Source of the DNA: Gemmatimonadaceae bacterium
GTDB lineage: Bacteria > Gemmatimonadota > Gemmatimonadetes > Gemmatimonadales > Gemmatimonadaceae
Length of the DNA: 36,489 nucleotides
NCBI GenBank assembly: GCA_035533015.1
Contig: DATLUQ010000014.1
Location: 1-36,489 of the forward strand
Direction: 5' to 3'
In this document: positions 2,620 through 17,979 of the stretch, piece after piece
Numbering within the stretch: the stretch's first letter is position 1
How the letters are laid out: the number at the start of each line of letters is the position of its first letter
Made by a program: the position numbers and the translations under genes
The notes under the pieces: model-generated
The model's input: the letters and a program-made list of their open reading frames with translations, nothing else
Told to the model about the DNA's origin: nothing
The model's database searches: none

Positions 2620-3477
2620 CTACGACGCTCGGTCGATTGCGCGGAGAAGGGCGCGGCGCGCAGCCACCGTGGCGAGGTGGAGACGGTATTCAGCCGAGGC
2701 GTGGATATCGCCATTCGCACGCACGCCGGTGGCCGTGGCACGGGCCGCGCGGCTCACGGCTTCCGTGCCGCCGTCGGTTCCCACGATCTGATCCGCAGCG
2801 TTACTCAGGAAGGGCGTGTCGGCGAGCCCGGCAAAGGCCAGTCGTGCGGCGACGACCTTGCCCTTGGCGCGTGCCACGACCGCAGCGGCCCCGACCAGCG
2901 AGTAGCCCGACGCCGCTTGCTCGAAAGACTCATATGCCGTTCCGGTTCCCTTCGTGGTGACCGGCACGTGAATCTCGATCAGGAGTTCGCTCGGTTTCAT
3001 CGCGGTCTCGAACGGCCCGCGGAAGAACGCGTGCGCCGCGACGGTGCGCACCGCACGAGCGGATCGGAGTACGAAGGTCGCGCCGAGGGCCAGCATCGCC
3101 GCCGGCATGTCGGCGGCCGGGTCGGCGTGGGCGAGCCCGCCGCCGATGGTGCCCACGTTGCGCAGCTGCAGGTCCCCGATGTGGGAGGCGACCTCGGCAA
3201 GGAGCGGCACGTTCTTCGACAACAGCTTCGATTCGAGCACCTCGCGATACGTCGTGGCGGCGCCGATGCGCACCCCGCTTCCTTTTCCGCGGGCGATCCC
3301 CCGCAGCGCGTCGAGGTGCGCGATGTCGACCAGCCGCTTGGGCTGCGCGAGGCGGAACCGGAGCAGGGGGATGAGGCTCTGGCCCCCGCAGATCACCTTG
3401 GTGTTCTTCGCGCCGACGGCCTTGAGGGCGTCGGCAAGAGACCGCGCACGCGTGTATTCGAAGGCGGCGGGAATCAT
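2620..3477 (-). CDS. coxM: CO dehydrogenase-like medium subunit, FAD-binding (CoxM)
   Basis: A 285-aa flavoprotein subunit of the xanthine oxidase/CO dehydrogenase family, of the usual length. It carries the two FAD-contact motifs of CoxM: an AGGHS-type loop seen here as CGGQSLIPLLRFRL, and TIGGGLAHADPAADMPA. The C-terminal CO-dehydrogenase flavoprotein domain follows (AFAGLADTPF and onward). In the family, electrons pass from the molybdenum centre through the CoxS iron-sulfur clusters to this FAD and then to a quinone or another acceptor. The start at ATG 3477-3475 overlaps the coxL stop as ATGA and gives the expected N-terminus MIPAAFEY; longer starts would run deep into coxL. The stop is 10 bases ahead of the coxG start, so the genes are almost certainly co-transcribed. 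Confidence 0.95.
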   Translation of the reverse strand: MIPAAFEYTRARSLADALKAVGAKNTKVICGGQSLIPLLRFRLAQPKRLVDIAHLDALRGIARGKGSGVRIGAATTYREVLESKLLSKNVPLLAEVASHIGDLQLRNVGTIGGGLAHADPAADMPAAMLALGATFVLRSARAVRTVAAHAFFRGPFETAMKPSELLIEIHVPVTTKGTGTAYESFEQAASGYSLVGAAAVVARAKGKVVAARLAFAGLADTPFLSNAADQIVGTDGGTEAVSRAARATATGVRANGDIHASAEYRLHLATVAARRALLRAIDRAS

Positions 3478-5831
3478 GGGCGGGCTCCTTTCGTGGCCGC
3501 CTGGATGGCCGCCCAGACCCGGGCCGGCGTGAGCGGCTTGTCGATGTGCGTGATGCCGAGTGGCGAAAGCGCGTCGCACACGGCGCCGACGACGGCCGGT
3601 ACGGACGCGATGGTGCCCGTTTCACCCACGCCCTTGACGCCGAGCGGGTTCACCGTGGTCGGCGTGACGGTATGCGCGACCTCGATGCGCGGCATCTGCG
3701 ACGCCTTGGGGACGGCGTAATCCATCATCGTGCCCGTCAGGAGCTGGCCGTCGTCGTCGTACACGGCCATCTCCTGGAGTGCTTCACCGATGCCCTGGAT
3801 CACGCCGCCATGTACCTGGCCCTCCACGATCATCGGGTTGATGATCGGACCGCAGTCGTCGACGGCGATGTACCGGAGCACTTTCACCTCGCCGGTCTCC
3901 ACATCCACCTCCACCACGCAGAGGTGCGTTCCGAACGGATACACGAAGTTTGGCGGGTCGAAGAACGCCGTGGCTTCGAGCCCCGGCTCGGTACCCACCG
4001 GCATGTTCCACGCGAGGTTGGCCATCAGGGCCAGTTCACCAAAACTCTTTGCCCGGTCCGGGGATCCGCGCACGACGAACCGGCCGTCCTTCCAGTCGAG
4101 ATTCTCTTCGGGCGCCTCCAAGAGGTGCGCGGCGATTTTCTTGGCCTTCGCCTTTACCCGCAGGGCAGCGATCTTCACGGCGCTTCCGCTGACCGCCGTC
4201 GTGCGGCTGCCGTACGTTCCCCACCCCTGGGGCGTGGTTTCAGTATCGCCCGCCACGATCTCGACGTTCTCGATTCCGATCCCGAACTCGTCGGCAACGA
4301 TCTGGGCGAACGTCGTCTCTTCACCCTGTCCGTGCGGCTTGGCTCCGATATACACCCGCGTGACACCGGTGGGATACACACGGACGATCGCGCTCTCGTA
4401 GAGCCCGCCGCCGAACCCCACCGCGCCGGCGACCTGCGAGGGGCCCAACCCGCAAATCTCGCAGTAGGTGGTGATGCCGAGGCCCAGATACCGGCCCTTC
4501 TTGCGGGCGGCCGTCTGCTCTGCGCGGAATGCCCGGTAGTCGAGCATTCCCAGCGCCTTGTTCAGCGCGCCCTGATAGTCGCCGGAGTCGTACGTGATGC
4601 CGGTCGCCACCGTGTACGGAAAGCTCTCCTTGGGGATCAGGTTCTTGCGTCGCACATCCACCGGATCCATGGCGAGCTGGTGCGCGAACTGGTCCACCAG
4701 TCGCTCGAGCATGTAGGTCGCTTCCGGACGGCCGGCCCCACGGTAGGCGTCCACCGGCGTGGTGGTCGTGTACACGCCCCGGACCACGCCCTTGATGTTC
4801 GGAATCATGTATGGTCCCGAGTACATCAGGCCGCTCAGGATGGTGGGGATCCCGGGCCCTGCAGTGGAGGCGTAGGCCCCAAGTCCCGCGTACACCCGGC
4901 AGCGCAGTCCGGTAATCTTGCCGTCCTTCGTGCCGCAGAGCTCGACGTGCTCCACGTGATCCCGGCCGTGGATGGTTGCCTTATAGTTCTCCGAGCGGTC
5001 TTCGGTCCACTTGACCGGCCGCTGGAGTTGCATCGCGGCGAAGCCCACCAGCGCCTCATCGGCATAGGCCGGGATCTTGCTGCCGAACGCGCCTCCCACC
5101 TCGGGAGCGATCACCCGGAGACGGTGCTCGGGCACCTTGAGCATGACCGAGCAGAGGAAGCGGTGGATGTGCGGATTCTGGCTCGTGACCCAGAGCGTGA
5201 GCTGTTCCGTGCTGGCATTGTAGGTGGCCACCGCGGCCCGGGGCTCCATCGCGGTGGGTTGCATGCGCTGATGGACGAGCCGCATCGCCACCTTCACTGG
5301 CGCTTCGGCGAACGCCTTGTCCGCGTCGCCGCCAGCGACGGTCCAAGTGAAGGCGACGTTCGACGCAATTTCCGAATGGAGTCGTGGTGCGCCGGGCTGC
5401 GTCGCCAACTCGGGATCGACGACAGCCGCCAGTGGTTCGTAGTCCACCGCGATGAGGTCGAGGGCGTCGCGCGCGGCTTCGCGCGTTTCCCCCACGACCA
5501 TCGCCACCCCGTCTCCCGCATAGCGCACCGTGTCCACGGCCAGCAGCGGGTGCGCCGGGATCTTGAGGTCGCAGTTTGGCACGTTCCACGCGCAGGGAAC
5601 CGGGTTCACCTTCTCCGCCACGTCCTTGCCGGTATACACCGCCACCACGCCGGGTGCCTTTCTGGCCTGGGCGACATCGACTTTCCGGATGCGCGCGTGC
5701 GCCCACGGACTGCGGAGGATAGCGGCGTGGAGTACCCCCGGGAGCTTGACGTCGTCGGTGTAGGTCGCGTGGCCGGTGATGAGTCGTGGGTCTTCCCGGC
5801 GCCTGACGCTGGACCCGATGAGTGTTCCCAT
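3474..5831 (-). CDS. coxL: Form II CO dehydrogenase-like molybdenum large subunit (CoxL)
   Basis: A 785-aa molybdenum hydroxylase large subunit with the aldehyde oxidase/xanthine dehydrogenase domain (N-terminal, beginning GSSVRRREDPRLITGHATYTDD) and the molybdopterin-binding domain after it. The active-site loop reads AYRGAGR at residues 362-368. This is the form II signature, in contrast to the AYxCSFR loop of form I enzymes whose CO oxidation is proven. The catalytic base is Glu737 in GVGETG. True CO oxidation therefore cannot be assumed: form II enzymes may act on aldehydes, purine-like or other small substrates. Gene order S-L-M is also the form II order (form I is M-S-L). The start ATG at 5831-5829 has a near-perfect ribosome site AAGGAGG at 5843-5837, overlapping the coxS stop. 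Confidence 0.96.
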   Translation of the reverse strand: MGTLIGSSVRRREDPRLITGHATYTDDVKLPGVLHAAILRSPWAHARIRKVDVAQARKAPGVVAVYTGKDVAEKVNPVPCAWNVPNCDLKIPAHPLLAVDTVRYAGDGVAMVVGETREAARDALDLIAVDYEPLAAVVDPELATQPGAPRLHSEIASNVAFTWTVAGGDADKAFAEAPVKVAMRLVHQRMQPTAMEPRAAVATYNASTEQLTLWVTSQNPHIHRFLCSVMLKVPEHRLRVIAPEVGGAFGSKIPAYADEALVGFAAMQLQRPVKWTEDRSENYKATIHGRDHVEHVELCGTKDGKITGLRCRVYAGLGAYASTAGPGIPTILSGLMYSGPYMIPNIKGVVRGVYTTTTPVDAYRGAGRPEATYMLERLVDQFAHQLAMDPVDVRRKNLIPKESFPYTVATGITYDSGDYQGALNKALGMLDYRAFRAEQTAARKKGRYLGLGITTYCEICGLGPSQVAGAVGFGGGLYESAIVRVYPTGVTRVYIGAKPHGQGEETTFAQIVADEFGIGIENVEIVAGDTETTPQGWGTYGSRTTAVSGSAVKIAALRVKAKAKKIAAHLLEAPEENLDWKDGRFVVRGSPDRAKSFGELALMANLAWNMPVGTEPGLEATAFFDPPNFVYPFGTHLCVVEVDVETGEVKVLRYIAVDDCGPIINPMIVEGQVHGGVIQGIGEALQEMAVYDDDGQLLTGTMMDYAVPKASQMPRIEVAHTVTPTTVNPLGVKGVGETGTIASVPAVVGAVCDALSPLGITHIDKPLTPARVWAAIQAATKGARP

Positions 5832-5842
5832 GTCTCCCTCCT

Positions 5843-6334
5843 TCAGGCCGACGCGCGGCCAGGCTTCGACGCACGGAGCGTCTCAGCGGCGGCGCGGATG
5901 GCGTCCACGATGTTCTGGTAACCGGTGCAGCGGCAGAGATTCCCGTCGATCGCGTGGCGGATCTCCGCCTCGGTCGGGTCGGGATTCGCCGCGAGGAGGT
6001 CCACGGCGGTCATGATCATGCCCGGCGTGCAGAACCCGCACTGCAATCCGTGCTTGTCCATGAACGCCTGCTGGACCGGGTGCAGCATTTCGGCGCCAAG
6101 GTGCTCGATGGTGGTGATCTCGCGCCCCTCCGCCTGAACCGCGAGCACCGCGCAACTCTTCACCGCACGTCCATCGAGGTGGACGGTGCACGCGCCGCAC
6201 TGGCTGGTGTCGCAACCCACGTGCGTGCCTGTGAGGCCGAGTTGGTCTCGGAGCACGTGGACGAGAAGGGCTCGCGGCTCCACGCGGACCGAACGAGCGA
6301 CACCGTTGACCTTGAGCGTGATGGACGCGACCAC
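5843..6334 (-). CDS. coxS: CO dehydrogenase-like small subunit, 2x[2Fe-2S] (CoxS)
   Basis: A 163-aa iron-sulfur subunit of the molybdenum hydroxylase. The plant-type ferredoxin cluster is bound by Cys41, Cys46, Cys49 and Cys61 ([11 protein letters not shown] with a later KSC). The second, four-helix cluster is bound by Cys99, Cys102, Cys134 and Cys136 (CGFC and CRC). All eight ligands are present. The start was set at GTG 6334-6332, with GGAGA 7 bases upstream, because the protein then opens with the family pattern SITLKVNG and has normal length; the frame runs 30 codons further upstream without family resemblance. It is the first gene of the cox-like operon and sits 104 bases from the divergent ABM-domain gene. 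Confidence 0.95.
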
Positions 6335-6391
6335 GAGAACTCTCCGCTCGGGTTTGCTGAGTCCGGCTCGCCATGCGGCGAATCCGAGACT

Positions 6392-6420
6392 AATATGCCG
6401 CGGGCTGAAACCACCCGCAA
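6392..6420 (-). promoter_or_regulatory. Candidate promoter of the cox operon (with overlapping divergent -10 box)
   Basis: On the minus strand TTGCGG (6420-6415) and CATATT (6397-6392) lie 17 bases apart, giving a plausible sigma-70-type promoter with a leader of about 50 bases before coxS. The same AT-rich patch reads TAATAT (6391-6396) on the plus strand and could serve as the -10 box of the divergent ABM gene, although no good plus-strand -35 is seen. An inverted repeat GCGGG/CCCGC (6400-6404 with 6414-6418) lies inside the spacer and could be an operator. The evidence is only sequence resemblance. Confidence 0.35.
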
Positions 6421-6438
6421 CCATTGTGGAGGACGTCG

Positions 6439-6774
6439 ATGATCACGCTGACCGCACGTTTCACCATACGCCCGGGCCGGATTCCAGCGGCCCTCAAGCT
6501 GGTGCATGCCGTGAAGGCGCAGTCCGATGCCGAACAGCCGGGCACGCTGCTTTACCTCGTGCATCGCGTCCTGGACAAGCATCACCAGCCCACGCGCGAG
6601 TTGTTGTTCTACGAATGCTACCGGGACCAGAAGGCGCTCGACACGCACTTGAAGTCGTCGACCTGGAAGGCGTTGACGCGACGGTGGGAGTCCTGCTTCG
6701 AGGGCACGCCGGCGGAGATCGCCGTCACGCCCCTCGATCGGATTGCCGGATTCGTCCACCTAGAGGCACCCTAG
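6439..6774 (+). CDS. Antibiotic biosynthesis monooxygenase (ABM)-domain protein
   Basis: A 111-aa single-domain protein of the ABM / dimeric alpha-beta barrel fold. It opens [12 protein letters not shown], has the pattern [21 protein letters not shown] around residues 60-80 (typical of YgiN/LsrG-like quinol or aldehyde-sugar monooxygenases), and ends in the expected beta strand. Members are small cofactor-free oxygenases or isomerases acting on quinones or reactive aldehydes, and the substrate cannot be told from sequence. The start ATG 6439 has GGAGG 6 bases upstream; an upstream in-frame ATG at 6424 lacks this. It is transcribed away from the cox-like operon and ends 21 bases from the converging ferritin-like gene. 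Confidence 0.85.
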
Positions 6775-6795
6775 TCCCCGAGTGCGCGGACCTGC

Positions 6796-7806
6796 TCAGC
6801 GGGCGTACTCGAAGCTCGGTCCCACCGTGGATCCGTCGGCGCGTCCGGTGGGAATCGCCATCAGGGCCTGGGCGCGGTACTTGAGCTCGTACATCTGCGG
6901 CGCGGCCTCCAGCAGCTGCTGCGGCTTCCCGTTGAACGCGCCGTGAAGGGTGCCCAACAGCGCGGTGTACCGGCGGTTGAATTCGACCATCAGGCGGTGG
7001 ACCTCCGGCTGCCGGCGGTACTGGCTGGCCCGCGGATTGGCGCGCATTGGGTAGCGCGCCGACCAGTCGATCGGGAGTTCGGCTCCGGTGGGCCCGCTCG
7101 CCGGGGAGTCGGAGCCAACGTATCGCCGCCCGGAGCGGATCTCGTTGAAACGAAAGTAATGCGCCAGCTCGTCCACCTGTCCGAACCGCTCATCACCGTC
7201 GAAAATCGTGTGGTCCAGCCCTTCTCCCTGCTCGGCGATCTCGGCGATGGCGCGCCGCGCGGAGGCGAGGTCGGTCACGCCGATCGGTTCCCCTCCACCC
7301 CCATAGTAGTACCGGCTTCCGGCGATCTGGAACCTCCGCTTGCCACTGAACAGCTTCTTCTCGCCGTACCTTCGCGTCAGCCGTTCGAGTCCGTCGGCGA
7401 TGGCTTCGTAGAACTGGCCGATGGTGTGGTAGCGGTTGGCCTGCGGCCTGGCGCCTGGCTTGGCCGGCCGCTCGATCCGGAGAAAGGTGTCGAGCGCCTC
7501 CGGACTGAAGGGAAGGAGCGAGACGAGAAAGGCGCGTTGACTGTGCGGCAGGTACGTCGGGTACTTCGGCACGAACTTCGGGTGGTCCACCTTGGGCTCA
7601 CCGCCCACGGAGTTGAGCAAGTTCGCGACCAGCGTCATGTGCAGCATCTCCTCCATGACCACCGCCCGGATGAGCGACACCGCAGCGGTGTTGGCGCCGT
7701 CGGGAATGGAGTACAGCGCGCACAGATAGGGAGGGATCGTCGCGTGCTCGAGTTCCAGCGCCCATTGCAGATGGCGCCACAGGTCCACTCGGTCGGTGAT
7801 AGGCAT
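6796..7806 (-). CDS. Stand-alone VioB/IDS-type ferritin-like diiron protein
   Basis: A 336-aa protein resembling the ferritin-like (iminophenyl-pyruvate dimer synthase) domain of VioB, RebD and StaD, here without the rest of those roughly 1000-aa enzymes. The opening LEHATIPPYLCALYSI and the later VDELAHYFRFNEI are typical. A complete four-helix diiron ligand set is readable: Glu20, Glu53 with His56 (EMLH), Glu134, and Glu213 with His216 (ELAH). Family members couple indole-pyruvate imines or perform other oxidative chemistry, but nothing else of the violacein or rebeccamycin pathway is nearby, so the reaction is unknown. It is the last gene of the four-gene redox module; its ATG lies 16 bases after the GMC gene, with GGGGA as ribosome site. 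No signal peptide is seen, so it should be cytoplasmic. Confidence 0.85.
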   Translation of the reverse strand: MPITDRVDLWRHLQWALELEHATIPPYLCALYSIPDGANTAAVSLIRAVVMEEMLHMTLVANLLNSVGGEPKVDHPKFVPKYPTYLPHSQRAFLVSLLPFSPEALDTFLRIERPAKPGARPQANRYHTIGQFYEAIADGLERLTRRYGEKKLFSGKRRFQIAGSRYYYGGGGEPIGVTDLASARRAIAEIAEQGEGLDHTIFDGDERFGQVDELAHYFRFNEIRSGRRYVGSDSPASGPTGAELPIDWSARYPMRANPRASQYRRQPEVHRLMVEFNRRYTALLGTLHGAFNGKPQQLLEAAPQMYELKYRAQALMAIPTGRADGSTVGPSFEYAR

Positions 7807-7822
7807 GGCGGCAATCCCCGGA

Positions 7823-9658
7823 TCAGCGGAGTTGGGTGAGCATATCTCTGGTGGACATCAGCGTCATGGCAAGCGCCGTGAGAGTCGGGTTCGCGGTGCC
7901 CGTGGTCGGCATGCTTCCGCAGCCCACGACGTAGAGATTCTCGTGATCCCAACTGCGTTGATTGCGATCGACGACGCTGTCGTTCCGGGTCGTTCCCATC
8001 CGGTGCGTCCCGATGTGATGGCCGGCGCCGATGAAATGCAGGAGATAATCCCGACCATCCTTCGCGCGGTACTGACGTTCATCGGGCAGGCCCGCCGGCG
8101 GAACGTAGAAGATGTCCTCCTCGGGAATTCCCATCCTCCGGTAGATCGCCTGCGACACTTTGATCGCCTCGACCATCGCCTGCCACGTGTAATCGGAGAG
8201 TCCGTAGTTGATGACGGGTCGGAAGCATCCCGCGGCATCCACGAACTCGCGCGAGATGGTCACGCGATTCCCCGGCTGGGGGAGCTGTTCGATGTCGAAT
8301 CCGATGCGGATCTGTCGCGGTAGCGTGTCGCCGAGCTGCTGGCGCAGCTTCTTGCCGAAGATATTCTTTCCCAGGCGGCCGGTTACGTCGCCGTCGGGCG
8401 GGAAGTCCACGACGTCCCATCCCCAGTTGCCGAGGTCCACGCGGAACGCCGCGAAGTCCTTGCGGAACGCGCCGTCACGAAGGCTCTCCACGCCGGACGT
8501 CTGACCCGGGCCCCGGAACATCCCCATCGACTGCGGGGCGAGCGCCCAGGTGAAAAAGAACGGATGGTCCATCAGGTTGCGCCCGACCTGATCGCTGGAA
8601 TTCGCCGCGTTGGACGCCAGCAGCAGTTTGGCGTTCTCCACCGCGTGGCCGGCGAGCACGTAGATCGTCGCCGTTGCCGTGTGCGCCGTCATCGGCCCGC
8701 CTTCCTGGTCGTACGTGAGGTACTCGACGCCGTCGATCCTCCCGTTGGAGGCGATGTGCAGCTTCGTGGCGACGGCCTGCGTGCGAAGCGTCACCATGCG
8801 GCGGTCGAGTTCGGCGATCGTCTTGAGCGACGAGTACTTGGCCTGGACCGGACAGATCGGGATGCAGCTTGCGTTGCCTTCGCATCGCAGTCCGATCTCC
8901 GGGCGGCCGAGGGCTCCCTTCGGGATGTACCCATGCCGGTCCACGCCGCCTACGCGCACCGTCCTCGTGCGGGGAATCGAGTTCCGGGCCTGCGCGAGAC
9001 TCGAGACCCTGACCGGATATTTGCGTCCAGCCAACTCGACGGTCAGCCCACGCGTCTTCCGCGCGATGACCTGGTCGCTGTAGCTCGGCGGGATTCGCTC
9101 CATGGGATAATCGTACCCCCTGGGGAACCACACACCGAGGTGTTCCTGATCGCGGCGGTTTGCGGCCACGCCAATGGACCACTCGGCTTCGCAGTAGTGA
9201 TCCTGCAGATCGTCGTAGGTGATCGGCCAGTCCACCCCGACGCCGTATTTCGTATTGAGCCGGAAGTCGTTGGGGAGGAATCGCGGCGTCGTGCCCAACC
9301 AATGGAGCGACGTCCCGCCCAGCGAGCGCAGGTACGTGGAGCCGAATCCCTGAGGTCCGCGCTCCACCTGGTAGCCTACGAGGTCGGGCGTTCCCTTTCG
9401 AATGCGCAGGATGTCGGTGGACAGCGGCGACGGAGCGCTCGCGTTCTGCGGATACGGGGAATTGGGTTCCTTGATCACGGCCGTGTAGTAGCTGTCCACG
9501 TAGGACCGGTAGCCGTCGTACGTGAGGCCCGAAGCGCGCCCGGCCTCGAGCATCAGGACGCGCTTGTGCTGCGCGCCAAGCTCCCGGGCCACGTGGGCGC
9601 CGATCGGACCCGAGCCAATGACGATCGCGTCGTAGTGTTCGCCGTCGTCGCTCGTCAC
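7823..9658 (-). CDS. GMC-family flavoprotein dehydrogenase with probable [3Fe-4S] motif
   Basis: A 611-aa glucose-methanol-choline oxidoreductase. The ADP-binding loop GSGPIG lies at residues 15-20 with the acidic LMLEAG following, and the C-terminal GMC domain ends with HHIGTHRMG and TGTANPTLTALA, which hold the catalytic His and Asn. Cys259, Cys265 and Cys269 (CEGNASCIPIC) match the C-x5-C-x3-C spacing of the [3Fe-4S] ligands known in FAD glucose dehydrogenase of Burkholderia cepacia, which places this protein with the GDH/FDH/sorbitol dehydrogenase large subunits rather than oxygen-using oxidases. The substrate is unknown. The start GTG 9658-9656 overlaps the stop of the small-subunit gene (GTGA), with GAGGG upstream; the open frame extends upstream into that gene but looks non-native there. 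No signal peptide is present. Confidence 0.93.
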   Translation of the reverse strand: MTSDDGEHYDAIVIGSGPIGAHVARELGAQHKRVLMLEAGRASGLTYDGYRSYVDSYYTAVIKEPNSPYPQNASAPSPLSTDILRIRKGTPDLVGYQVERGPQGFGSTYLRSLGGTSLHWLGTTPRFLPNDFRLNTKYGVGVDWPITYDDLQDHYCEAEWSIGVAANRRDQEHLGVWFPRGYDYPMERIPPSYSDQVIARKTRGLTVELAGRKYPVRVSSLAQARNSIPRTRTVRVGGVDRHGYIPKGALGRPEIGLRCEGNASCIPICPVQAKYSSLKTIAELDRRMVTLRTQAVATKLHIASNGRIDGVEYLTYDQEGGPMTAHTATATIYVLAGHAVENAKLLLASNAANSSDQVGRNLMDHPFFFTWALAPQSMGMFRGPGQTSGVESLRDGAFRKDFAAFRVDLGNWGWDVVDFPPDGDVTGRLGKNIFGKKLRQQLGDTLPRQIRIGFDIEQLPQPGNRVTISREFVDAAGCFRPVINYGLSDYTWQAMVEAIKVSQAIYRRMGIPEEDIFYVPPAGLPDERQYRAKDGRDYLLHFIGAGHHIGTHRMGTTRNDSVVDRNQRSWDHENLYVVGCGSMPTTGTANPTLTALAMTLMSTRDMLTQLR

Positions 9659-10197
9659 GGCTGCGTTCCCTCGGGAGGCAGCGCCCAGGAGCCGAAGCCA
9701 GGCTGCTTCGCCGCCGGTGGATGCGTGTGGAGGGCCTTCCAGACGAGCCCGCCGGTGTACGATTGGGGCGACACGACGAACGTGGTGTCGCCAGCCCATG
9801 CCCCGTGGGCGTTGCGCCACGTGGACGGGAGTTGGTTCCACATGCCCAGGTACCAGAGTGCGGCGAGGTTGCGGGCGATCGGCCCGAGCGCCGCGTCCTC
9901 GAATAGCTCGGTGGTCACCAGATCCTCGAGCAGCCGTTCGTCGCCCGCGCCCCGCGCGTTGATGTTCGCCCAGCGAGTGAGGAGCCGTCCGAAGAAGTCG
10001 GGGCCGATGATGGACGGAATGAGGTCGAAGTAGGTCTGCGTCATCCCCGTTCCGTGGAGTTCCGCAGCATCGAACCCGGTGATGAGCGCCGAGAGACCGA
10101 CGAACTGCGACATCGGCGTGCCGAGGTCGGGTGGGGGCGACGATTTCGGGGCGGCGGCTCTCTTCGCGGGCCTCCGGGACGACGGTCGTGGAGTCAC
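9655..10197 (-). CDS. Sorbitol/fructose dehydrogenase small-subunit-like protein (FAD-SLDH family)
   Basis: A 180-aa protein resembling the small subunits of membrane-bound FAD sugar dehydrogenases. Recognisable parts are FVGLSALITGFDAAEL near residues 32-47, LWYLGMWNQLP, and the C-terminal SYTGGLVWKALHTHPP followed by KQPGFGSWALPP. In fructose and glucose dehydrogenases this subunit is a chaperone or assembly partner of the GMC subunit and carries the Tat signal that exports the pair. Here the N-terminus (MTPRPSSRRPAKRAAAPKSS) is basic but lacks the hydrophobic stretch of a Tat signal, so the complex probably stays in the cytoplasm. The start is taken as GTG 10197-10195; an internal ATG at residue 29 (MSQFVGL) is a real alternative. 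Its stop overlaps the GMC start. Confidence 0.85.
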   Translation of the reverse strand: MTPRPSSRRPAKRAAAPKSSPPPDLGTPMSQFVGLSALITGFDAAELHGTGMTQTYFDLIPSIIGPDFFGRLLTRWANINARGAGDERLLEDLVTTELFEDAALGPIARNLAALWYLGMWNQLPSTWRNAHGAWAGDTTFVVSPQSYTGGLVWKALHTHPPAAKQPGFGSWALPPEGTQP

Positions 10198-10213
10198 GGG
10201 TTGCGTCCGGGGC

Positions 10214-11119
10214 CTAGAGGTCGGCGTAATAGGGCGTCGCTTCTGCGATGCACGTCGGGCTCGCGAAATGCTGGATGGCCGCCGCGCGTCGCGTGCCGAT
10301 CAACCGCAGCATGTCGTGTCGCATCGGGTGCTTGCTCTGGCCGAACTGCATCGCTACCGCATTGCTCGACGGCGGCACCATGTAGGTCTGATGCAGGCCG
10401 AAATAATTGCGGCGCGACGCCACGGGTCGGCGGGTGTTGTCGTCGTAGCTGATGTCGATCCACTCCGACATGTTGGACGCGATGCCCGTCAGGCCGGAGA
10501 GATCGACCTTCCCCTGGTAGATCGTCGGCTGAGCGCGGGTCGAATCGTAGCAGGTCCAGTTCCAGGTCGTGACTCCCGGAAGGTTCGGCGATGGTACCGT
10601 GTACTCGTATGGCGTGAGAAACTTGTTTTCGAAGTAACTCTGGCGACCGAACGCCACGGCGATGGGGTCGTCGCAGGCCACCCACAAACGGAAATTGCCG
10701 ACGCGTTTGGTCTGCTCGCCGAGGGTGAGGTAGTCGCTGAGGGACAGTCCTTGTGGCACGTTCTGTTCGATCTTCGTGGCGTAGCCGACGATGTTCAACT
10801 CGGTCTCGTTGAAGCCGGAGATGCCGGGGTTTCCCGGCTGGCCCGACCCGTACAGCGCGGCGGCGTTGAAGAAGTTGATGTTCACCGCACCCTTGTTCCC
10901 GCCAAAATCGTACGGGGTCATGCCGAATGGCTCGAGATAGGACCTCAGGAGCGGCAATTCCACGCTCCACCAGACCCAGATGGCCTGGATGCCGGCGTAG
11001 AAGAAGCCCTGGGCAGCGGGAACCTGGAGGGTGCCGCTGGTCTTCGACGTCACCTTGATCTTGGGGATCGTGACTTTGGTGGGCAGCGGTGGGAGAGGGC
11101 CAGGCTTCGGTGGTGCCAT
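10214..11119 (-). CDS. Unrecognised 301-aa protein, first gene of redox module (possibly acetoacetate decarboxylase-like fold)
   Basis: I do not firmly recognise this protein. It begins with a Pro/Lys-rich segment (MAPPKPGPLPPLPTKVTIPK), followed by a globular region rich in aromatic residues. Blocks that look conserved are NINFFNAAALYGSGQPG, GFNETELNIVGYATK, NFRLWVACDDPIAVAFGRQ and PNLPGVTTWNW. The order of a GFNE-type turn, a VACDDPIAVAFGR block and a following bulky hydrophobic segment is faintly like acetoacetate decarboxylase-fold proteins, but no catalytic Lys pair could be identified. No signal peptide or membrane segment is seen. The start at ATG 11119 has GAGG 7 bases upstream; the frame extends 30 codons upstream through the promoter region. 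Its stop is 16 bases before the small-subunit gene, so it leads the four-gene operon and is probably a functional partner of the dehydrogenase. Confidence 0.82.
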   Translation of the reverse strand: MAPPKPGPLPPLPTKVTIPKIKVTSKTSGTLQVPAAQGFFYAGIQAIWVWWSVELPLLRSYLEPFGMTPYDFGGNKGAVNINFFNAAALYGSGQPGNPGISGFNETELNIVGYATKIEQNVPQGLSLSDYLTLGEQTKRVGNFRLWVACDDPIAVAFGRQSYFENKFLTPYEYTVPSPNLPGVTTWNWTCYDSTRAQPTIYQGKVDLSGLTGIASNMSEWIDISYDDNTRRPVASRRNYFGLHQTYMVPPSSNAVAMQFGQSKHPMRHDMLRLIGTRRAAAIQHFASPTCIAEATPYYADL

Positions 11120-11180
11120 AATCAGACCTCGAACGTGCCAGGGGTGCGGAGCAGGCGTCATCAATTCCAGTGAACGGTGA

Positions 11181-11209
11181 CTTATAGCGTCCGGCCGAAG
11201 GAGGCGCAA
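11181..11209 (-). promoter_or_regulatory. Predicted promoter of the four-gene redox module
   Basis: On the minus strand TTGCGC (11209-11204) and TATAAG (11186-11181) are separated by exactly 17 bases. The -10 box matches the consensus at five of six positions. Transcription would start near 11174 and leave a leader of about 55 bases before the ATG at 11119. It is one of the better promoter candidates in the window. Confidence 0.5.
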
Positions 11210-11229
11210 GCACGCGCGATGGTGCGTGC
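11210..11229. repeat. Inverted repeat next to the redox-module promoter
   Basis: GCACGC (11210-11215) and GCGTGC (11224-11229) form a perfect 6-bp inverted repeat with an 8-base loop. It directly abuts the -35 box of the redox-module promoter and lies 25 bases downstream of the flippase-like gene stop. It could be an activator or repressor site for the module, or part of the end of the upstream transcript; there is no T-run. A second short hairpin (GGCGG/CCGCC) directly follows the flippase-like stop. Confidence 0.3.
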
Positions 11230-11253
11230 CGCGCGTATGCCGGCGGGAGCCGC

Positions 11254-12276
11254 CTATTCGAACTGGTCGGTCGGCAGGTCGAGCGGATTCACGGCCACGC
11301 CTGCAGCGCTCGGCGGTTCACCGGCATGGCGACGCCTCCGCAGGAATTCCGGCGCCATCACGATGCCGATGGCGGTGACGGGCAGGATCTGCTGCGCCTG
11401 GATGAGGAACGCCACGGCCACGGCGGCGTTCGAATCGAAGCCCAGCGCCGCGGCGGTGAGCGCATAGAAGACCTCGAACACGCCGACGTTGCCCGGGGTG
11501 GAGCGAATGGCGAATCCGACGTTCACGGCCAGCAGACAGGCGACGGTGCCCGTGAAGGTGATGGGGAAATGGACGGCGCGCGCCGTGAGCCCGTAGGTAG
11601 CGATCTGCAACGCCCACGCGCCCATGGACAGCAGCATCGCCGCGGCGAACCGCGGCACGGTGGAGACGCTCGCCAGGGTGTGCGTGAACCGGCGCGCGTA
11701 GGCCCGCAGTTTGCCGCGCCAGTTGGTCTCGTCCGTCGTCACGCGCTCCTCGGTCTTCTCGCGGCTGAGCAGGAAGAGCACGAAGAACCCCAACACGGCG
11801 AGCGCGGTGATGGCGAACGGGCGGAGTCCCGCGATGTGGTCGGGAAGCGGGAGCAACCAGATGCCGAGGACAAGCATCAGCACGTAGCCGATCACCTCGA
11901 ACAGCCGCTCGAGCGCGAACGTGGCGAGGATCTTCGCGCTGGGCACCCGCGTGGCGCGCGCCACGAAGATCACGCGGGCCGCTTCACCGCCGTTGGCCAC
12001 GAGGACGTTGTTGAGTCCGGCGCCGGCGAACGTGGCGCGCATGGCGAGCCAGAGCGAGTCGGCGCCCACGGGCCGCAGGAACACCCACCAACGCACGCCT
12101 TTGAGGACGAGCGAGGTGAGGTTCACCGCCGCTGCCAGGAGCAGTAGACTCGGCGACGCCGAGCGGAATGCACGCCATGTCTCGCCCCACTGCACCCGCG
12201 TGGCGAACAGCACGAGGAAGGCGGCGACAGCCACCCACATCGAGATTCGCAGGACGCGGATGACCTGGCGCTTCAT
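11254..12276 (-). CDS. YbhN/AglD-type flippase-like integral membrane protein
   Basis: A 340-aa multi-spanning protein of the lysylphosphatidylglycerol synthase TM region / UPF0104 family. About seven or eight hydrophobic helices are visible. The family signature near the C-terminus reads RSTPGNVGVFEVFYALT, corresponding to the usual PGGLGxxE motif. An earlier block ATFAGAGLNNVLVANGGEAAR holds the typical conserved N and GE. Members are linked to movement or modification of lipids across the cytoplasmic membrane, but most have no proven function. The ATG overlaps the deacetylase stop (ATGA). Being third after a glycosyltransferase and a deacetylase suggests a role in making or translocating a glycolipid or surface glycan. 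The last 30 residues are a hydrophilic tail. Confidence 0.88.
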   Translation of the reverse strand: MKRQVIRVLRISMWVAVAAFLVLFATRVQWGETWRAFRSASPSLLLLAAAVNLTSLVLKGVRWWVFLRPVGADSLWLAMRATFAGAGLNNVLVANGGEAARVIFVARATRVPSAKILATFALERLFEVIGYVLMLVLGIWLLPLPDHIAGLRPFAITALAVLGFFVLFLLSREKTEERVTTDETNWRGKLRAYARRFTHTLASVSTVPRFAAAMLLSMGAWALQIATYGLTARAVHFPITFTGTVACLLAVNVGFAIRSTPGNVGVFEVFYALTAAALGFDSNAAVAVAFLIQAQQILPVTAIGIVMAPEFLRRRRHAGEPPSAAGVAVNPLDLPTDQFE

Positions 12277-12968
12277 GCGGCGGGGACCGGTACGAACCGG
12301 TAGCCCCGGCCCTCGAGCGCAGAGAGCACTTGGGGTACTGCCTCCGCCGTCTGGCGCCGGTCACCCACCGGGTCGTAGCCGTCTCCGTCGTGCAGTAGGA
12401 GAATCGAACCGGGCCGCGCGCCGTCGACCGTGCGTTGGGCGATCACGTCGGCCCCCGGGCGGTCGGAGTCCCAGACGCCCAGCGACCATCCGATGACGCG
12501 CTCACCCAGCGAACGAGCGATGGAGTTGACCCACGGACTGCGAAAGCCATGCGGCGCACGGAACAGCGCGGGTCGTGCACCGCACGCCTGGGCGATGGCG
12601 TCTACGCCGCGCGTGAGATCGTCGCGCACGTAGGCGGGGCTCTTGAAGTGGAGTTTACGGTGGTAATAGCCGTGGTTGCCGACCGCGTGCCCATCGTCGC
12701 GGATGCGGCGCACGAGCGCCGGCCACCGTTCCGCATGGCGCCCCAGGATGAAGAAGGTGGCGTGCGCACCCGCGCGGGCCAGGGCGTCGAGAATTGGCGG
12801 GGTGGCCTCGGGGTTCGGACCGTCGTCGAATGTCAGCGCGACGACGCGCTCCCTCGTGGGGAGCCGGCCGAGCGCGGGCCCGAACAGGTAACTGTTCCGG
12901 TAGAAGGCTCCGTGCGCGGCGAGTCCCATGGCCACCGTGGCGCCGCCGAGCACTGCCGGCCCGTTCAT
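12273..12968 (-). CDS. Polysaccharide deacetylase (NodB domain)
   Basis: A 231-aa carbohydrate esterase 4 protein. An N-terminal hydrophobic segment (residues 5-20) may be a signal anchor, so the catalytic domain probably faces the periplasm. All NodB motifs are visible: TFDDGP with Asp48 (catalytic base) and Asp49 (metal), the metal histidines His99 and His103 (NHGYYH), RAPHGFRSP, a WSLGVWD strand, and LLLHDG near the end. The substrate is probably an N-acetylated sugar or glycolipid and cannot be specified. The start ATG 12968-12966 overlaps the stop of the glycosyltransferase as ATGA; the frame continues 23 codons upstream within that gene and was not used. Confidence 0.92.
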   Translation of the reverse strand: MNGPAVLGGATVAMGLAAHGAFYRNSYLFGPALGRLPTRERVVALTFDDGPNPEATPPILDALARAGAHATFFILGRHAERWPALVRRIRDDGHAVGNHGYYHRKLHFKSPAYVRDDLTRGVDAIAQACGARPALFRAPHGFRSPWVNSIARSLGERVIGWSLGVWDSDRPGADVIAQRTVDGARPGSILLLHDGDGYDPVGDRRQTAEAVPQVLSALEGRGYRFVPVPAA

Positions 12969-14173
12969 GGAACGACGGCGATGTGTCCGAGAATGGAGCG
13001 GTAGACGTCGAGCACCTGGCCGGCGACCCGGTCCCACCCGTAGGCCAGCGACTCCTCACGGCCGCGTTTCCCGAGCTGGGTCCGGAGGGCGGGATCATCG
13101 ATGAGGCGCACGATCGCGTCGGCCAGGGCGTCGTGGTCGCCGCACGGTACCATGAGCGCTTCGCGGCCGTTCTCCACGACGTCGCGGAAGCCGAGGATGT
13201 CGGAGCAGACGATTGGGGTCTCGCAGGCCATCGACTCGAGCAGCGTGATGCCGAATGACGCCTTCGTCGTGGGGCAGGCGTAGATCGAGCAGTTGGCGTA
13301 GTAGCTGGGCCGGCCCTCGAGCACGGCGCCCACGAACGTGATGTCCGGGTCGCCGCCGGCCAGTGCGCGGTAGTGGTCGCGGAGCGGGCCGTCGCCCACC
13401 ACGACCAACTGGGCCTCGCGGCCGAGCGCCTTCACCCGGCGGAAAGCGTGGATGAGCGTGTCGAGGCCGTTGCGCGGATCGAACCGTCCGAGGAACAGGA
13501 TCGACGGTACGTCGGTCCGGATCGTGGCGGGCCGCGGCGCGTCCGGCGTGAACACGTCGACGTCTATGCCGTTGGGAATGATCTTCCAGTCGGCCGTGAA
13601 GTAGCGGTTCAGCGCGACCGTGGTGGAGTGCGAGACGGCGATGGCCGCGCTCAGCTTGTCGAGCCGGCGCTGGAAGTACCGGTTGAACAGCGCGTAGGCC
13701 TTGGAATGGTCGAAATACGTATGGAAGGTGCCGACCACCGGGCAGTCTGCCTCATCGATGGCGAGCATGGGCAGCACGGGCGTGAGGGGCGAGTGGACGT
13801 GCACGATGTCGTACCGGCCTTCGCGAAGCACGCGACGCATGCGGCGCCGCAGCCCGATGCCGACCGTGATGCGGGCCTGCGATCCGTTGGACTGCACGGG
13901 CTGGCTGCGCCCGATGCGAATGACGTTGGGATGCTCCGCGGCCCCCGGAATGTGGGACGTGATGATGTCCACGTGGTGGCCGCGGCGTCGCGCCTCGCGG
14001 GCGAAGAAGTGCACGTGTTCGCACACCCCGCCCAGATGCGGATAGTAGTACTCCGTGACCAGCGCGATGCGAAACGTCCGATCATCCCGGGCTTCGGGTT
14101 GATCGGGCAGCTGCGGCATGGCCGGGTGCTGGGGGGCGCGGAGCGTCCTGCCCGCAAGGGTCAAGATCGGCAT
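12965..14173 (-). CDS. GT4-family glycosyltransferase (PimA-like)
   Basis: A GT-B fold glycosyltransferase of family 4, 402 aa from ATG 14173, with ATG 14119 (MPQLPDQP, 384 aa) as an equally possible start. The N-terminal Rossmann domain begins RIALVTEYYYPHLGGV, the linker holds HVHSPLTPVLP and TFHTYFDH, and the C-terminal domain has SILFLGRFDPRNGLDTLIHAF, typical of phosphatidylinositol mannosyltransferase and glycolipid transferases. In the donor-binding EX7E motif the first Glu is replaced by Ala305 (ASFGITLLE), while the second, Glu313, is kept. It likely adds a sugar to a lipid or glycan on the cytoplasmic membrane face. It is the first of three genes joined by ATGA overlaps with a deacetylase and a flippase-like protein. 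Confidence 0.92.
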   Translation of the reverse strand: MPILTLAGRTLRAPQHPAMPQLPDQPEARDDRTFRIALVTEYYYPHLGGVCEHVHFFAREARRRGHHVDIITSHIPGAAEHPNVIRIGRSQPVQSNGSQARITVGIGLRRRMRRVLREGRYDIVHVHSPLTPVLPMLAIDEADCPVVGTFHTYFDHSKAYALFNRYFQRRLDKLSAAIAVSHSTTVALNRYFTADWKIIPNGIDVDVFTPDAPRPATIRTDVPSILFLGRFDPRNGLDTLIHAFRRVKALGREAQLVVVGDGPLRDHYRALAGGDPDITFVGAVLEGRPSYYANCSIYACPTTKASFGITLLESMACETPIVCSDILGFRDVVENGREALMVPCGDHDALADAIVRLIDDPALRTQLGKRGREESLAYGWDRVAGQVLDVYRSILGHIAVVP

Positions 14174-14306
14174 GAAGGCGGAAATATACCATTCCCGGGG
14201 CACGGGGGTGTAGCGGCACCGCCCGGCGCTCGGGGAGCACCCGGCTCGGGCGCATGTATGACGGAGTCACCGGTCCGGGCGTTTCGCCCCACCCGGGAAT
14301 TCGGCA
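14174..14306. other. Intergenic region between purF and the GT4 operon: promoter-like box and hairpin
   Basis: On the minus strand TATATT (14189-14184) stands 10 bases before the ATG at 14173, with only a weak -35 (TACACC, 14212-14207). Transcription would begin almost at that ATG, giving a leaderless message, or leave a leader of about 58 bases if ATG 14119 is used. Near the purF end, GGGCG/CGCCC with loop TTT (14277-14289) forms a compact hairpin that could help end the long purine transcript, but no T-run follows on the minus strand. Confidence 0.35.
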
Positions 14307-15668
14307 TCAGTCGCGGCGGGCGTCCAGCGGCGCCGCCGTGGGGTAGTCGCCGGTGAAGCACGCGTCGCAGAATCCTTCGGGGCCGCCCGGTACGGCACCG
14401 AGCATGCCGTCGCGCGACAGATAGCCGAGGGAGTCCACCCCCAATTCGCGAGCGATCTCGGCCTGCGACAGGTTGGCCGCTATCAACTCCCGTCGGCTGG
14501 GCGTGTCGATGCCGTAGTAGCACGGGCCGGTGATCGGGGCCGAGCTGACGCGGAGATGCACTTCCTTCGCGCCGGCGGAGCGGATCATCGCCACCAGGCC
14601 GCGCGTGGTCGTGCCGCGCACGATGGAGTCGTCCACCATCACCACGCGCTTGCCCGCGATCACCTCGCGCACCGGGTTGTACTTGATCTTGACCTTGGCA
14701 TCGCGGCCCGCCTGCGTGGGCTGGATGAACGTGCGGCCCACATAGTGATTGCGGATGAGCGCCAGTTCGTACGGCAGCCCGCTCACCTCGGCAAAGCCGA
14801 GGGCCGCCGAGTTGGAGGAGTCGGGAACGCTGAATACGAGGTCGGCGTTCGGCGCCGGGTGCTCCTTGGCCAGTTGCCGTCCCAACTCGCGCCGCGCGCG
14901 GTCCACCGACCCCCCGAACACGCGGCTGTCGGGGCGCGCGAAATATACGTACTCGAATACGCACCGGCGCAACGGCATCGGCTCCAGTGCCTGGATGGCG
15001 TGGACGCCGGTGTCGTCGACGACGATGATCTCGCCGGGACCCACCTCGCGCTCGGCCACCGCCCCCACGATGTCGAGGGCGCAGGTCTCCGATGCGAACA
15101 CCACGGCGCCGTTGAGCCGGCCCATGACCAGCGGGCGCCAGCCGCGCGGATCGCGCGCCGCGATCAGCGTGTCGCCGATGGCCGCCACGAGGCTGTACGC
15201 ACCGTCGAGGCCGGTGAGCGCCTCGGCCATGCGCGCGGCCGGCGTGGGGGCCTGCGACTTGGCCAGCCGGTGCACGATCACTTCCGAATCGGCGTTGGTG
15301 GAGAAGATGGATCCCTGGGCTTCGAGCTCGGCCCGCACCTGGACCGCGTTCACGAGATTCCCGTTGTGCGCCAGCGCGATATGCCCGCCGCGGGAACGCA
15401 CGAAGATCGGCTGCGCGTTCTCGATGGTGGACGAGCCGGCCGTGCTGTACCGCGTGTGGCCGAGGGCCAGGTTGCCATGGAGCTGCTCCAGCTCGTGTCC
15501 CATGGTCTCGTTCATGGTGCCCATGGAGCGCACGAGTTGCCCCTGGCCGTGCGCGTCGAGTACCACCACCCCGACGGATTCCTGACCGCGGTGCTGGAGG
15601 GAATAGAGCCCCAACTGGGTGAGCCGGGCTGCGTCCGGGGTGCCACGAATACCGAAGATGCCGCACAT
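14307..15668 (-). CDS. purF: Amidophosphoribosyltransferase
   Basis: A 453-aa enzyme catalysing the first committed step of purine synthesis, PRPP plus glutamine to 5-phosphoribosylamine. The N-terminal nucleophile glutaminase begins MCGIFGI, so Cys2 becomes the catalytic N-terminus after Met removal; LQHRGQES and HNGNLVN follow. The PRPP loop reads VVMVDDSIVRGTTT. Four cysteines match the [4Fe-4S] ligands of Bacillus-type PurF: in RRCVFEYVYF, GPCYYGIDT and CDAC near the C-terminus. Unlike Bacillus PurF there is no propeptide, because no start codon precedes the Met in frame nearby. The gene begins 4 bases after the purL stop and is the last gene of the superoperon. Confidence 0.97.
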   Translation of the reverse strand: MCGIFGIRGTPDAARLTQLGLYSLQHRGQESVGVVVLDAHGQGQLVRSMGTMNETMGHELEQLHGNLALGHTRYSTAGSSTIENAQPIFVRSRGGHIALAHNGNLVNAVQVRAELEAQGSIFSTNADSEVIVHRLAKSQAPTPAARMAEALTGLDGAYSLVAAIGDTLIAARDPRGWRPLVMGRLNGAVVFASETCALDIVGAVAEREVGPGEIIVVDDTGVHAIQALEPMPLRRCVFEYVYFARPDSRVFGGSVDRARRELGRQLAKEHPAPNADLVFSVPDSSNSAALGFAEVSGLPYELALIRNHYVGRTFIQPTQAGRDAKVKIKYNPVREVIAGKRVVMVDDSIVRGTTTRGLVAMIRSAGAKEVHLRVSSAPITGPCYYGIDTPSRRELIAANLSQAEIARELGVDSLGYLSRDGMLGAVPGGPEGFCDACFTGDYPTAAPLDARRD

Positions 15669-15672
15669 GAAC

Positions 15673-17979
15673 TCAGGCCGCCGTAGTGACGGGGGAGTCG
15701 GAGACGGCGGAGGCCGCCCGCGACATGATACGAGGAATGGATTCGAAGTAGGCGTCGGCGAGCTGCACGATGGATGCCGCGAGATGCCGGTCGCCCGCCG
15801 TGATCTCGAGGTTCCCGCCGTTCTCCACGACGCCGATGTCCTGCGCCGGAACGCCGTGGCGGCGGGCCACCGCGAGCACGCCATCGGGATCGGGGGTGGA
15901 CACGATCACACGTCCCTGTGCCTCACCGAACAGCAGAGCGCGCAGGGGAAGGCCCGCCCACGCGGCGAGGTCGACACGGGCTCCGATTGGACGCTCCCGG
16001 TCCATGATGGCGCATTCGGCCAGGGCGACGGCGAGCCCGCCGTCGCTGCAGTCGTGCGCCGAACGGACGGCGCCGGCGGTGATCGTATCGAGCAGCGCTT
16101 CGATGAGCCGCCGTTCGGCGTCGAGATCGCAGGTCGGCGGCGCGCCGGCCACGACCCCGTGAATGGTCTGGAGGTATTCGCTCGCGCCGATCGACGCCGT
16201 GGGTTCGCCCAGCAGGACGATCCGGTCGCCGGCCTGTGCGAACGCCGCGCGGGTGATGTGGGACAGCGAATCGATGCGTCCGACCATCCCGACGACGGGC
16301 GTGGGGTAGATGGCGCCACGCGGGGTCTCATTGTACAGCGATACGTTGCCGCCGGTGACGGGGGTGCCGAGCGCCAAGCACGCTTCGGCCAAGCCAGCCA
16401 CCGCTTCGCGCAGTTGATAGTAGATGTCGGGTTTGCGCGGGTTCCCGAAGTTGAGGTTGTTGGTGATGGCCATGGGCCGGCCGCCGGTGCACGCGACGTT
16501 GCGTGCCGCCTCGGCCACGGCGATGCGCGCGCCGAGTCGGGGATCGAGGTACGTGTAGCGGCCGTTGCCGTCGGTCTTGACGGCCAGGGCACGGTCGGTG
16601 CCGCGCACGCGGAGCACGGCGGCATCCCCTCCTGGTCCGACCACCGTGTTGGTGCGCACCGTGGAATCGTACTGTCGGTAGACCCACGCCTTGCTCGCGA
16701 TCGTGGGGCTGCCCAGCAATCGGAGGAGCGTCCAGACGGGGTCCCGCTCCTCGGCGCGCTCGGGCAGGGCATTCACGTCGCGGGCCCGCAGGGCCGCGAT
16801 GGCCGGGCTCTCGACGGCATCCGGCGTATAGGTGGGGCAGTCGGTGACCAGGCGGTTGCCGGGGAACTCGGCCACCACGCGGTCGCCCTCGGTGACGCGG
16901 TATACCGGGTCCGCTATGACTTGGCCGATCACGGCCGCCGTGAGGTCCCACTTCTCGAGGATGGCGCGGACGGCGTCCTCGTGTCCCTGGCGGGCCACGA
17001 CGAGCATGCGCTCCTGCGACTCGCTGAGCAGAATCTCGTACGGCGTCATGTTGGGCTCGCGCACCGGTACCCGGGTCACGTCGATCGTCACGCCGACGTC
17101 GCCGCGCGCCGCCATCTCGGCCGACGACGACGTGAGGCCGGCGGCCCCCATGTCCTGGATGGCCACGATGTGGCCGCTGTGGATCAGTTCGAGACTGGCT
17201 TCGAGCAGCAGCTTCTCGGTGAACGGATCGCCCACCTGCACACGGGGGCGCTTGGCGTCGTTCGCCTCGGACAGGTCCTCGGACGCGAACGAGGCGCCAT
17301 GAATGCCGTCGCGCCCGGTGCGGGCGCCCACGGCGATGATCGGATTGCCGACTCCCTGAGCGACGGCAAGCATCAATTCCGATTCGCGGAGCAACCCCAC
17401 GCACATGGCGTTGACGATTGGATTTCCCTCATAGGCCGGATCGAACACGACCTCGCCAGCCACCGTCGGCACGCCCACGCAGTTGCCGTAGTCCCCGATC
17501 CCCTTGACGACGCCGCTGAACAGGTAGCGCACGCGGGGGGAGTCGAGGCTGCCGAACCGGAGCGAATTGAGCATCGCGATGGGGCGGGCGCCCATCGTGA
17601 ACACGTCGCGGAGAATGCCGCCCACCCCGGTGGCCGCGCCCTGGTACGGCTCCACCGCCGAGGGGTGGTTGTGCGATTCGATCTTGAACGCCACGGCCAG
17701 ACCGTCGCCGATGGCGATGACGCCCGCGTTCTCGCCGGGACCCTGCAGCACGTAGTCGGCCTTGGTGGGCAGGGTGCGGAGCAGGGGACGCGAGTGCTTG
17801 TAGGAGCAGTGCTCGCTCCACAGGGCGCTCACGATGCCAAGTTCGGTGAACGTCGGCTCGCGGCCGAGCATGTCGACGAGGCGGCGATACTCGTCCGCGG
17901 TGAGCCCGTGCTCGGCGATCAGCGCCGGCGTGATGGCCGGGTCGCCGGGGCGGGGTTGGACGGAACGCACGGAGGTCAC
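15673..17979 (-). CDS. purL: Phosphoribosylformylglycinamidine synthase subunit PurL (small type)
   Basis: A 768-aa subunit of the three-part FGAM synthase, which with PurQ and PurS converts FGAR, ATP and glutamine to FGAM in the fourth purine step. The N-terminal region has [21 protein letters not shown], with the catalytic His. [24 protein letters not shown] and [19 protein letters not shown] are standard PurL motifs, and the second AIRS-like half carries GGNVSLYNE and [14 protein letters not shown]. Its length matches the PurL that needs separate PurQ and PurS, both of which are encoded just upstream. The start GTG 17979-17977 overlaps the zinc-ribbon gene stop (GTGA). Confidence 0.97.

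Follow-up and report, generated by a model that had tools for sequence, protein, structure and literature searches.

At the sequence level, the window considered here, that is, the whole stretch of 36,489 nucleotides of the Gemmatimonadaceae contig DATLUQ010000014.1, carries at positions 6796-11119 a module of four co-linear open reading frames on the minus strand. These are flanked by a convergent gene for a protein with an ABM domain and, directly beyond it, by the genes of a molybdenum hydroxylase:

10214-11119, minus strand: P0001, ADC-like protein (301 aa, start ATG)
9655-10197, minus strand: P0002, small subunit of the FAD-SLDH/gamma type (180 aa, start GTG)
7823-9658, minus strand: P0003, GMC flavoprotein, catalytic subunit (611 aa, start GTG)
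6796-7806, minus strand: P0004, PF12902 ferritin-like (VioB-type) protein, predicted diiron protein (336 aa, start ATG)
6439-6774, plus strand: ABM-domain protein (PF03992, E 5e-10), convergent with P0004
2620-6424, minus strand: molybdenum hydroxylase made up of three subunits (for FAD, MoCo and 2Fe-2S), adjoining the ABM gene on its far side

P0001 and P0002 are separated by 16 bases, P0002 and P0003 overlap by 4 bases (GTGA), and P0003 and P0004 are again 16 bases apart; the positions, lengths, starts and spacings of the four genes are the same as those given in an earlier, sequence-only reading of this DNA. The promoter which that reading had placed ahead of the module stays unconfirmed, as a sigma-70 scan of positions 5500-12500 found 0 promoters with 0.7 expected, a result of little weight at 65% GC; there could be room for one in the 134 bases that separate P0001 from the preceding gene of the same strand, which ends at 11254. 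A role of the module as a defence system was rejected on the grounds that PADLOC matches none of the four proteins. Within its own genome the ferritin-like family is present as a single copy, together with one further GMC match that is weak and partial. Three further genomes of this genus lack the module, which is therefore accessory there. In a Gemmatimonadetes MAG locus (L024), the gene for the 2Fe-2S subunit of the molybdenum hydroxylase is found in an equal position (74-79% identity).

The assignment of P0003 to the GMC flavoproteins is secure, with Pfam matches to PF05199 (E 1.9e-23) and PF00732 (E 2.4e-8), and its best solved relatives are FAD-GDH (6a2u/8hdd, E 3e-67) and fructose dehydrogenase (7w2j, E 9e-51). 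It has been demonstrated that in the Burkholderia cepacia enzyme (BcGDH) Cys212, Cys218 and Cys222 ligate a 3Fe-4S cluster, and that Cys213 is disulfide-bonded to the small subunit (PMC6719666). C259, C265 and C269 of P0003 align with the three ligands, and Glu stands at the position of Cys213. The small subunit P0002 falls below the cut-off of the FAD-SLDH Pfam model (PF12318, E 0.09), which 12 of its 40 relatives match, with E values reaching 5e-4. Its single-chain AlphaFold model (pLDDT 86.5) superposes on the small subunit of fructose dehydrogenase with a Z of 9.9 over 123 residues, the next match having a Z of 2.3, so that the likeness to FAD-SLDH small subunits claimed from the sequence, sub-cut-off as it is, finds backing in the fold and in the relatives. 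Direct reading of P0002 shows zero cysteines, and no export signal was found in it.

The ferritin-like domain of P0004 is established by PF12902, with 222 bits against a cut-off of 22.3, and the protein also matches the ferritin-like protein of PDB 3hl1 (E 6e-27). In a profile alignment with bacterioferritin 1nf4 (E 9e-5), the diiron ligands of the latter fall on E20, E53 and H56. All 37 of the 37 relatives compared share these three residues as well as E112, E195 and H216. P0004 is thus predicted to possess a full set of diiron-type ligands, the invariance of which suggests catalysis by the family. Orthology with VioB was considered and rejected, as P0004 scores 23 bits with the TIGR04492 equivalog model, whose cut-off is 1250.

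As for P0001, the sequence-only reading had left it unrecognised, and neither alone nor as a profile does it match any entry of Pfam, NCBIfam or PDB. Its relatives and its fold place it instead in the acetoacetate decarboxylase (ADC) superfamily. Of the 19 family members, nine are recognised by PF06314, with E values down to 6.4e-5; P0001 itself is not one of them. With the AlphaFold model of P0001 (pLDDT 85, pTM 0.84), the best 24 of 24 Foldseek matches belong to the ADC superfamily (top E 6e-11), and VIA-align gives a Z of 18.9-20.6 for ADC structures and of 5.6 for the next other fold. Judged by this model, P0001 is a divergent enzyme of the ADC superfamily. K166, E105, E107, R144, D150 and E164 are invariant in 19 of 19 relatives, and hhalign sets K166 on the PK-motif lysine of Pfam-ADC proteins, an alignment of low probability made with a two-sequence template. 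The PK-motif lysine forms a Schiff base in ADC, MppR and SbADC, and K166 is a candidate for the same role. The fold and the invariant lysine therefore speak for a carbonyl enzyme accompanying the dehydrogenase, and a protein family without annotation gains a fold and a likely chemistry. Strong matches of this family away from the module are rare. On a Nocardia plasmid (L019, 6111-7834), a lone ADC-like gene overlaps that of a TauD/TfdA dioxygenase in a setting of glycosyltransferase genes, and neither a GMC nor a ferritin-like gene accompanies it.

The distribution of the gene set was examined by a scan with a GMC alignment over one genome per species (84,980 species), of which the best 80 loci were kept. 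Neighbours were counted from HMM and tblastn matches because greedy ORF calling in GC-rich loci gives shadow ORFs. The small subunit adjoins the GMC gene in 79 of the 80 best loci, the ferritin-like gene is present in 74 and the 301-aa family in 18 (HMM mapping), counts that are skewed to GMC-bearing loci, the query being the GMC and not the 301-aa family. In some branches, the small-subunit gene is placed downstream of the ferritin-like gene. Two more genomes from this bacterial family came up in a search with the 301-aa protein, to which their versions are 58% (G028) and 32% (G031) identical, and each has all four genes. The four genes also lie in identical order, with overlapping starts and stops, on a Ruegeria plasmid, and in a rearranged form on a Cupriavidus plasmid. 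The co-occurrence on which the sequence-only reading had built its four-gene module is thus real and found together elsewhere; the core of the module, however, consists of three genes (small subunit, GMC and ferritin-like), the 301-aa gene being an accessory in about one fifth of the loci. According to the record titles, the 80 loci span Gemmatimonadota, Acidobacteriota, Bacteroidota, Pseudomonadota, Actinomycetota, Verrucomicrobiota and Planctomycetota, and a Gloeothece plasmid adds the cyanobacteria, giving at least eight phyla. A gene set that recurs across phyla is more than chance, and the finding is more general than the earlier reading had supposed. The closest named relatives are Gemmatimonadetes MAGs (67% identity). 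When 298 genomes of the phylum were scanned with PF12902, eight strong matches (E < 1e-59) and several remoter ones were obtained; GMC sequence directly adjoins six of the eight strong matches, as seen in short stretches, and ABM genes are convergent with three. No description of this gene combination was found in the open-access library searched.

The ferritin-like gene is missing at 6 of the 80 loci. A streptomycete-type subclade (L007, L072, L087, L088 and L089) displays the order small-GMC-ADC without it and keeps the three cysteines, although the Fe-S motif next to them varies (GN to GH or GS) in four of these five loci. A Streptomyces plasmid likewise carries small-GMC-301aa, with no ferritin-like gene within the stretch examined. 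The diiron protein is therefore not indispensable in this subclade, where another acceptor would be needed.

The main finding emerges when this clade is set against its cytochrome-linked relatives. Plasmid GMC relatives of about 28-33% identity in Pantoea, Gluconobacter, Thioclava (two), Comamonas and Sphingomonas show the order small-GMC-cytochrome c, and each of the six cytochromes c bears three CxxCH motifs. By contrast, the order in the window clade is small-GMC-ferritin-like, as it is in a Methylobacterium relative of 38% identity. In a FastTree phylogeny of 102 GMCs, rooted on the six cytochrome-linked controls, 96 sequences form the window clade, with a support of 0.99, and the six controls group together (6/6). 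No open reading frame with two or more CxxCH was found in 1.32 Mb covering the 80 loci, and a Tat-like signal (an RR motif plus a hydrophobic core) was found in none of 82 small subunits and in four of the six controls; the threshold for the core was KD >=1.4, since a stricter value of 1.8 missed positive controls. The close relatives thus lack both a cytochrome c partner and export signals, in agreement with the cytoplasmic location proposed from the sequence. In the gene order, the PF12902 diiron protein occupies the position of the cytochrome. The three 3Fe-4S cysteines are kept in 95 of the 96 GMCs of the window clade, whereas the cysteine at the Cys213 position is absent from all 95 of the GMCs with three cysteines and present in four of six controls. 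These sequence features support a cytoplasmic complex, and the loss of the signal and of the disulfide cysteine, together with the retention of the cluster cysteines, fits one in which the wire would be retained and the acceptor changed.

Compared with the DET FAD sugar dehydrogenases (Burkholderia cepacia FAD-GDH, Gluconobacter fructose dehydrogenase and FAD-SLDH), the module shares a homologous GMC with three 3Fe-4S cysteines and the GGT..HW motif of the FAD region, a small subunit homologous by fold and the order small-GMC-partner. It differs from them in having the PF12902 diiron protein instead of a triheme cytochrome c, in lacking the Tat signal and the inter-subunit disulfide cysteine, and in the addition of the ADC-like and ABM genes. 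The type of dehydrogenase is itself known; what is new is an FAD/3Fe-4S complex of the sugar-dehydrogenase type with a diiron protein in the place of the cytochrome c. With regard to the ADC superfamily (ADC, MppR, the aldolase-dehydratase SbADC and Swit_4259), P0001 shares the whole-length fold (Z about 20) and the PK-motif lysine, yet it has only 10-15% identity, several insertions, a GMC dehydrogenase beside it and no Pfam match of its own. P0004 belongs to the same family as the VioB/RebD-type ferritin-like domain, with the full length of the ferritin domain and a flavoenzyme as partner gene, but it is a stand-alone protein of 336 aa and not a large VioB, and its partner is a GMC dehydrogenase and not an amino-acid oxidase. 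A precedent that works alike for the coupling of Fe-S to diiron centres is the Clostridium perfringens [FeFe] hydrogenase-rubrerythrin chimera, in which an Fe-S oxidoreductase is reported to be coupled to a ferritin-like diiron centre that reduces H2O2 (PMC11926857). The chimera differs in its unrelated oxidoreductase, its single fused chain and its use of hydrogen and not of a carbohydrate-like substrate.

Other branches of the module point to a further parallel. Where alphaproteobacterial and actinobacterial loci lack the ADC-like gene, the core lies amid genes for GH15, IolE-like, AP_endonuc_2 isomerase, MBL hydrolase and TPP enzymes, and the ADC-like (18) and IolE-like (14) genes show zero co-occurrence in the 80 loci (P 0.019, with the loci treated as unrelated). 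Isomerase/epimerase-family enzymes encoded beside the flavoenzyme GlycDH eliminate 3-keto-glycosides (PMC10628242). These GlycDH/AtOGE deglycosylation operons combine a flavoenzyme gene with two genes of the sugar phosphate isomerase/epimerase family, as does the ADC-less branch of the module; the window, in contrast, is without eliminase genes, PF01261 (sugar phosphate isomerase/epimerase) having no match among the genes scanned at 2620-15884, and that study mentions no ferritin-like gene. The ADC-like enzyme may, by analogy, act on a ketone made by the GMC, a role that TIM-barrel (IolE/AtOGE-like) enzymes probably fill in other branches.

The ABM-domain gene, which the sequence-only reading had overlooked, is probably an additional partner of the module. 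Its relatives adjoin the module at 13 of the 80 loci, as well as in G028, G115 and Ruegeria, and are also found there in Flavobacterium, among others. The convergent arrangement with the ferritin-like gene recurs in G028, G115 and a Gemmatimonadetes MAG, and the relatives in this position have 62 and 56% identity in G028 and the MAG, respectively. In two actinomycetes (L053/L056), the start of the ABM gene can overlap the stop codon of the ferritin-like gene (ATGA). An ABM-ferritin-like fusion in these actinomycetes was rejected, the two genes being in different frames with a possible overlap of 4 bases.

Various other genes accompany the module. Near it in about 31 loci lies a protein family that Pfam does not match. 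One of its members is annotated as a heme-binding protein, and in many Bacteroidota loci the genes of this family (L071, 11542-13065, and relatives) are downstream of the ferritin-like gene. A gene for a berberine-bridge-like FAD oxidase is a recurrent neighbour (L040, L043, L046, L048, L050, L051, L053, L056 and L032), and Dyp-type peroxidase genes are near the module in six loci (L020, L032, L051, L053, L056 and L059).

The architecture, that is, the gene set and its order, the clade, the cofactor residues, the fold and the lack of cytochrome genes and of signals, can be read in functional terms. We give an even chance to the proposal that the module encodes a cytoplasmic relative of the DET FAD sugar dehydrogenases, with a ferritin-like diiron protein, as the recipient of the electrons, instead of the triheme cytochrome c. 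On this basis we infer that the GMC subunit, held by the small subunit, would oxidise a sugar, a polyol or a related alcohol to a ketone or an aldehyde, and that the electrons would travel from the FAD to the 3Fe-4S cluster and from there to the diiron centre, where O2 (or peroxide) would be reduced, with water formed or a substrate oxygenated. In the window version, the lysine enzyme of the ADC type would process the carbonyl product via a Schiff base, by decarboxylation, elimination or retro-aldol cleavage. A broader version, which we put forward more tentatively and as somewhat short of an even chance, holds that these form a widespread class of soluble dehydrogenases coupled to O2, in which electrons pass from FAD via 3Fe-4S to the diiron centre. 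The diiron subunit, standing in for the cytochrome c, would make the complex a terminal oxidase or an oxygenase driven by sugar, and one branch would channel its ketone to the Schiff-base lysine enzyme.

There are three alternatives. The two enzymes might act in sequence, the diiron protein being an oxygenase or an oxidative coupling enzyme that works on the GMC product (or its H2O2) and takes no electrons directly from the GMC, an arrangement that we regard as rather unlikely. VioB and RebD act after the flavin oxidases VioA and RebO, and PF12902 is the VioB-type ferritin domain. Besides, Rhizobium, Gloeothece and Chryseobacterium keep the ferritin-like gene beside the GMC while other enzymes vary, and the overlap of the lone ADC-like gene with the TauD gene in Nocardia indicates that another iron oxygenase can adjoin an ADC-like enzyme. 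A sequential pathway, however, leaves without reason that the diiron gene lies exactly in the slot held in the sister complexes by the electron-accepting cytochrome, and that a 3Fe-4S wire, superfluous for a self-sufficient flavin oxidase, has been retained; the mere 23 bits of P0004 with the VioB model, whose cut-off is 1250, also count against it. Improbable in our estimate is a protective role, in which the GMC would be an oxidase that makes H2O2, and peroxide or iron would be cleared by the ferritin-like protein, joined in some loci by Dyp peroxidase and heme-binding proteins. Ferritin-like folds commonly detoxify peroxide, and the six loci with a Dyp-type peroxidase and the 31 or so with a heme-binding-type gene would agree with it, but the closest solved GMC relatives are dehydrogenases with 3Fe-4S clusters, the ferritin-like gene is kept (74/80) far more strictly than any peroxidase, and the window module has no peroxidase. 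Finally, a non-catalytic role in assembly, in which the ferritin-like protein gives iron to the 3Fe-4S GMC or stabilises it in the cytoplasm, would suit the strict pairing with the GMC and the cytoplasmic location, but it is very improbable given that the cytochrome-linked sisters with the same cluster manage without such a protein, that the complete and invariant diiron ligands suggest catalysis and that the Streptomyces subclade retains the cysteines without the ferritin-like gene.

The transfer of electrons to the diiron protein thus remains the preferred reading, and it hints at an unstudied electron route from sugar-like molecules to oxygen. FAD-GDH-type complexes serve in glucose sensors because their electrons exit via the cytochrome. 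If the proposal is true, a natural branch in which, across at least eight phyla, a diiron protein has displaced the cytochrome would reveal how FAD-GDH-type enzymes are rewired to O2. Sugars would there power the activation of oxygen in a new way, and the branch would also supply a family of soluble partners for engineering.

Further variation is seen in the catalytic subunit, as two tandem GMC genes are present in the module at L018, L026, L045, L052, L054 and L065, sometimes with two small subunits. The second copies fall in distinct branches of the tree and are therefore old paralogues, which may form heterodimers or catalyse successive steps. In fungi, PF12902 genes lie beside the lodA/lodB quinoprotein oxidase genes, a further pairing of PF12902 with an oxidase (PMC4417212).
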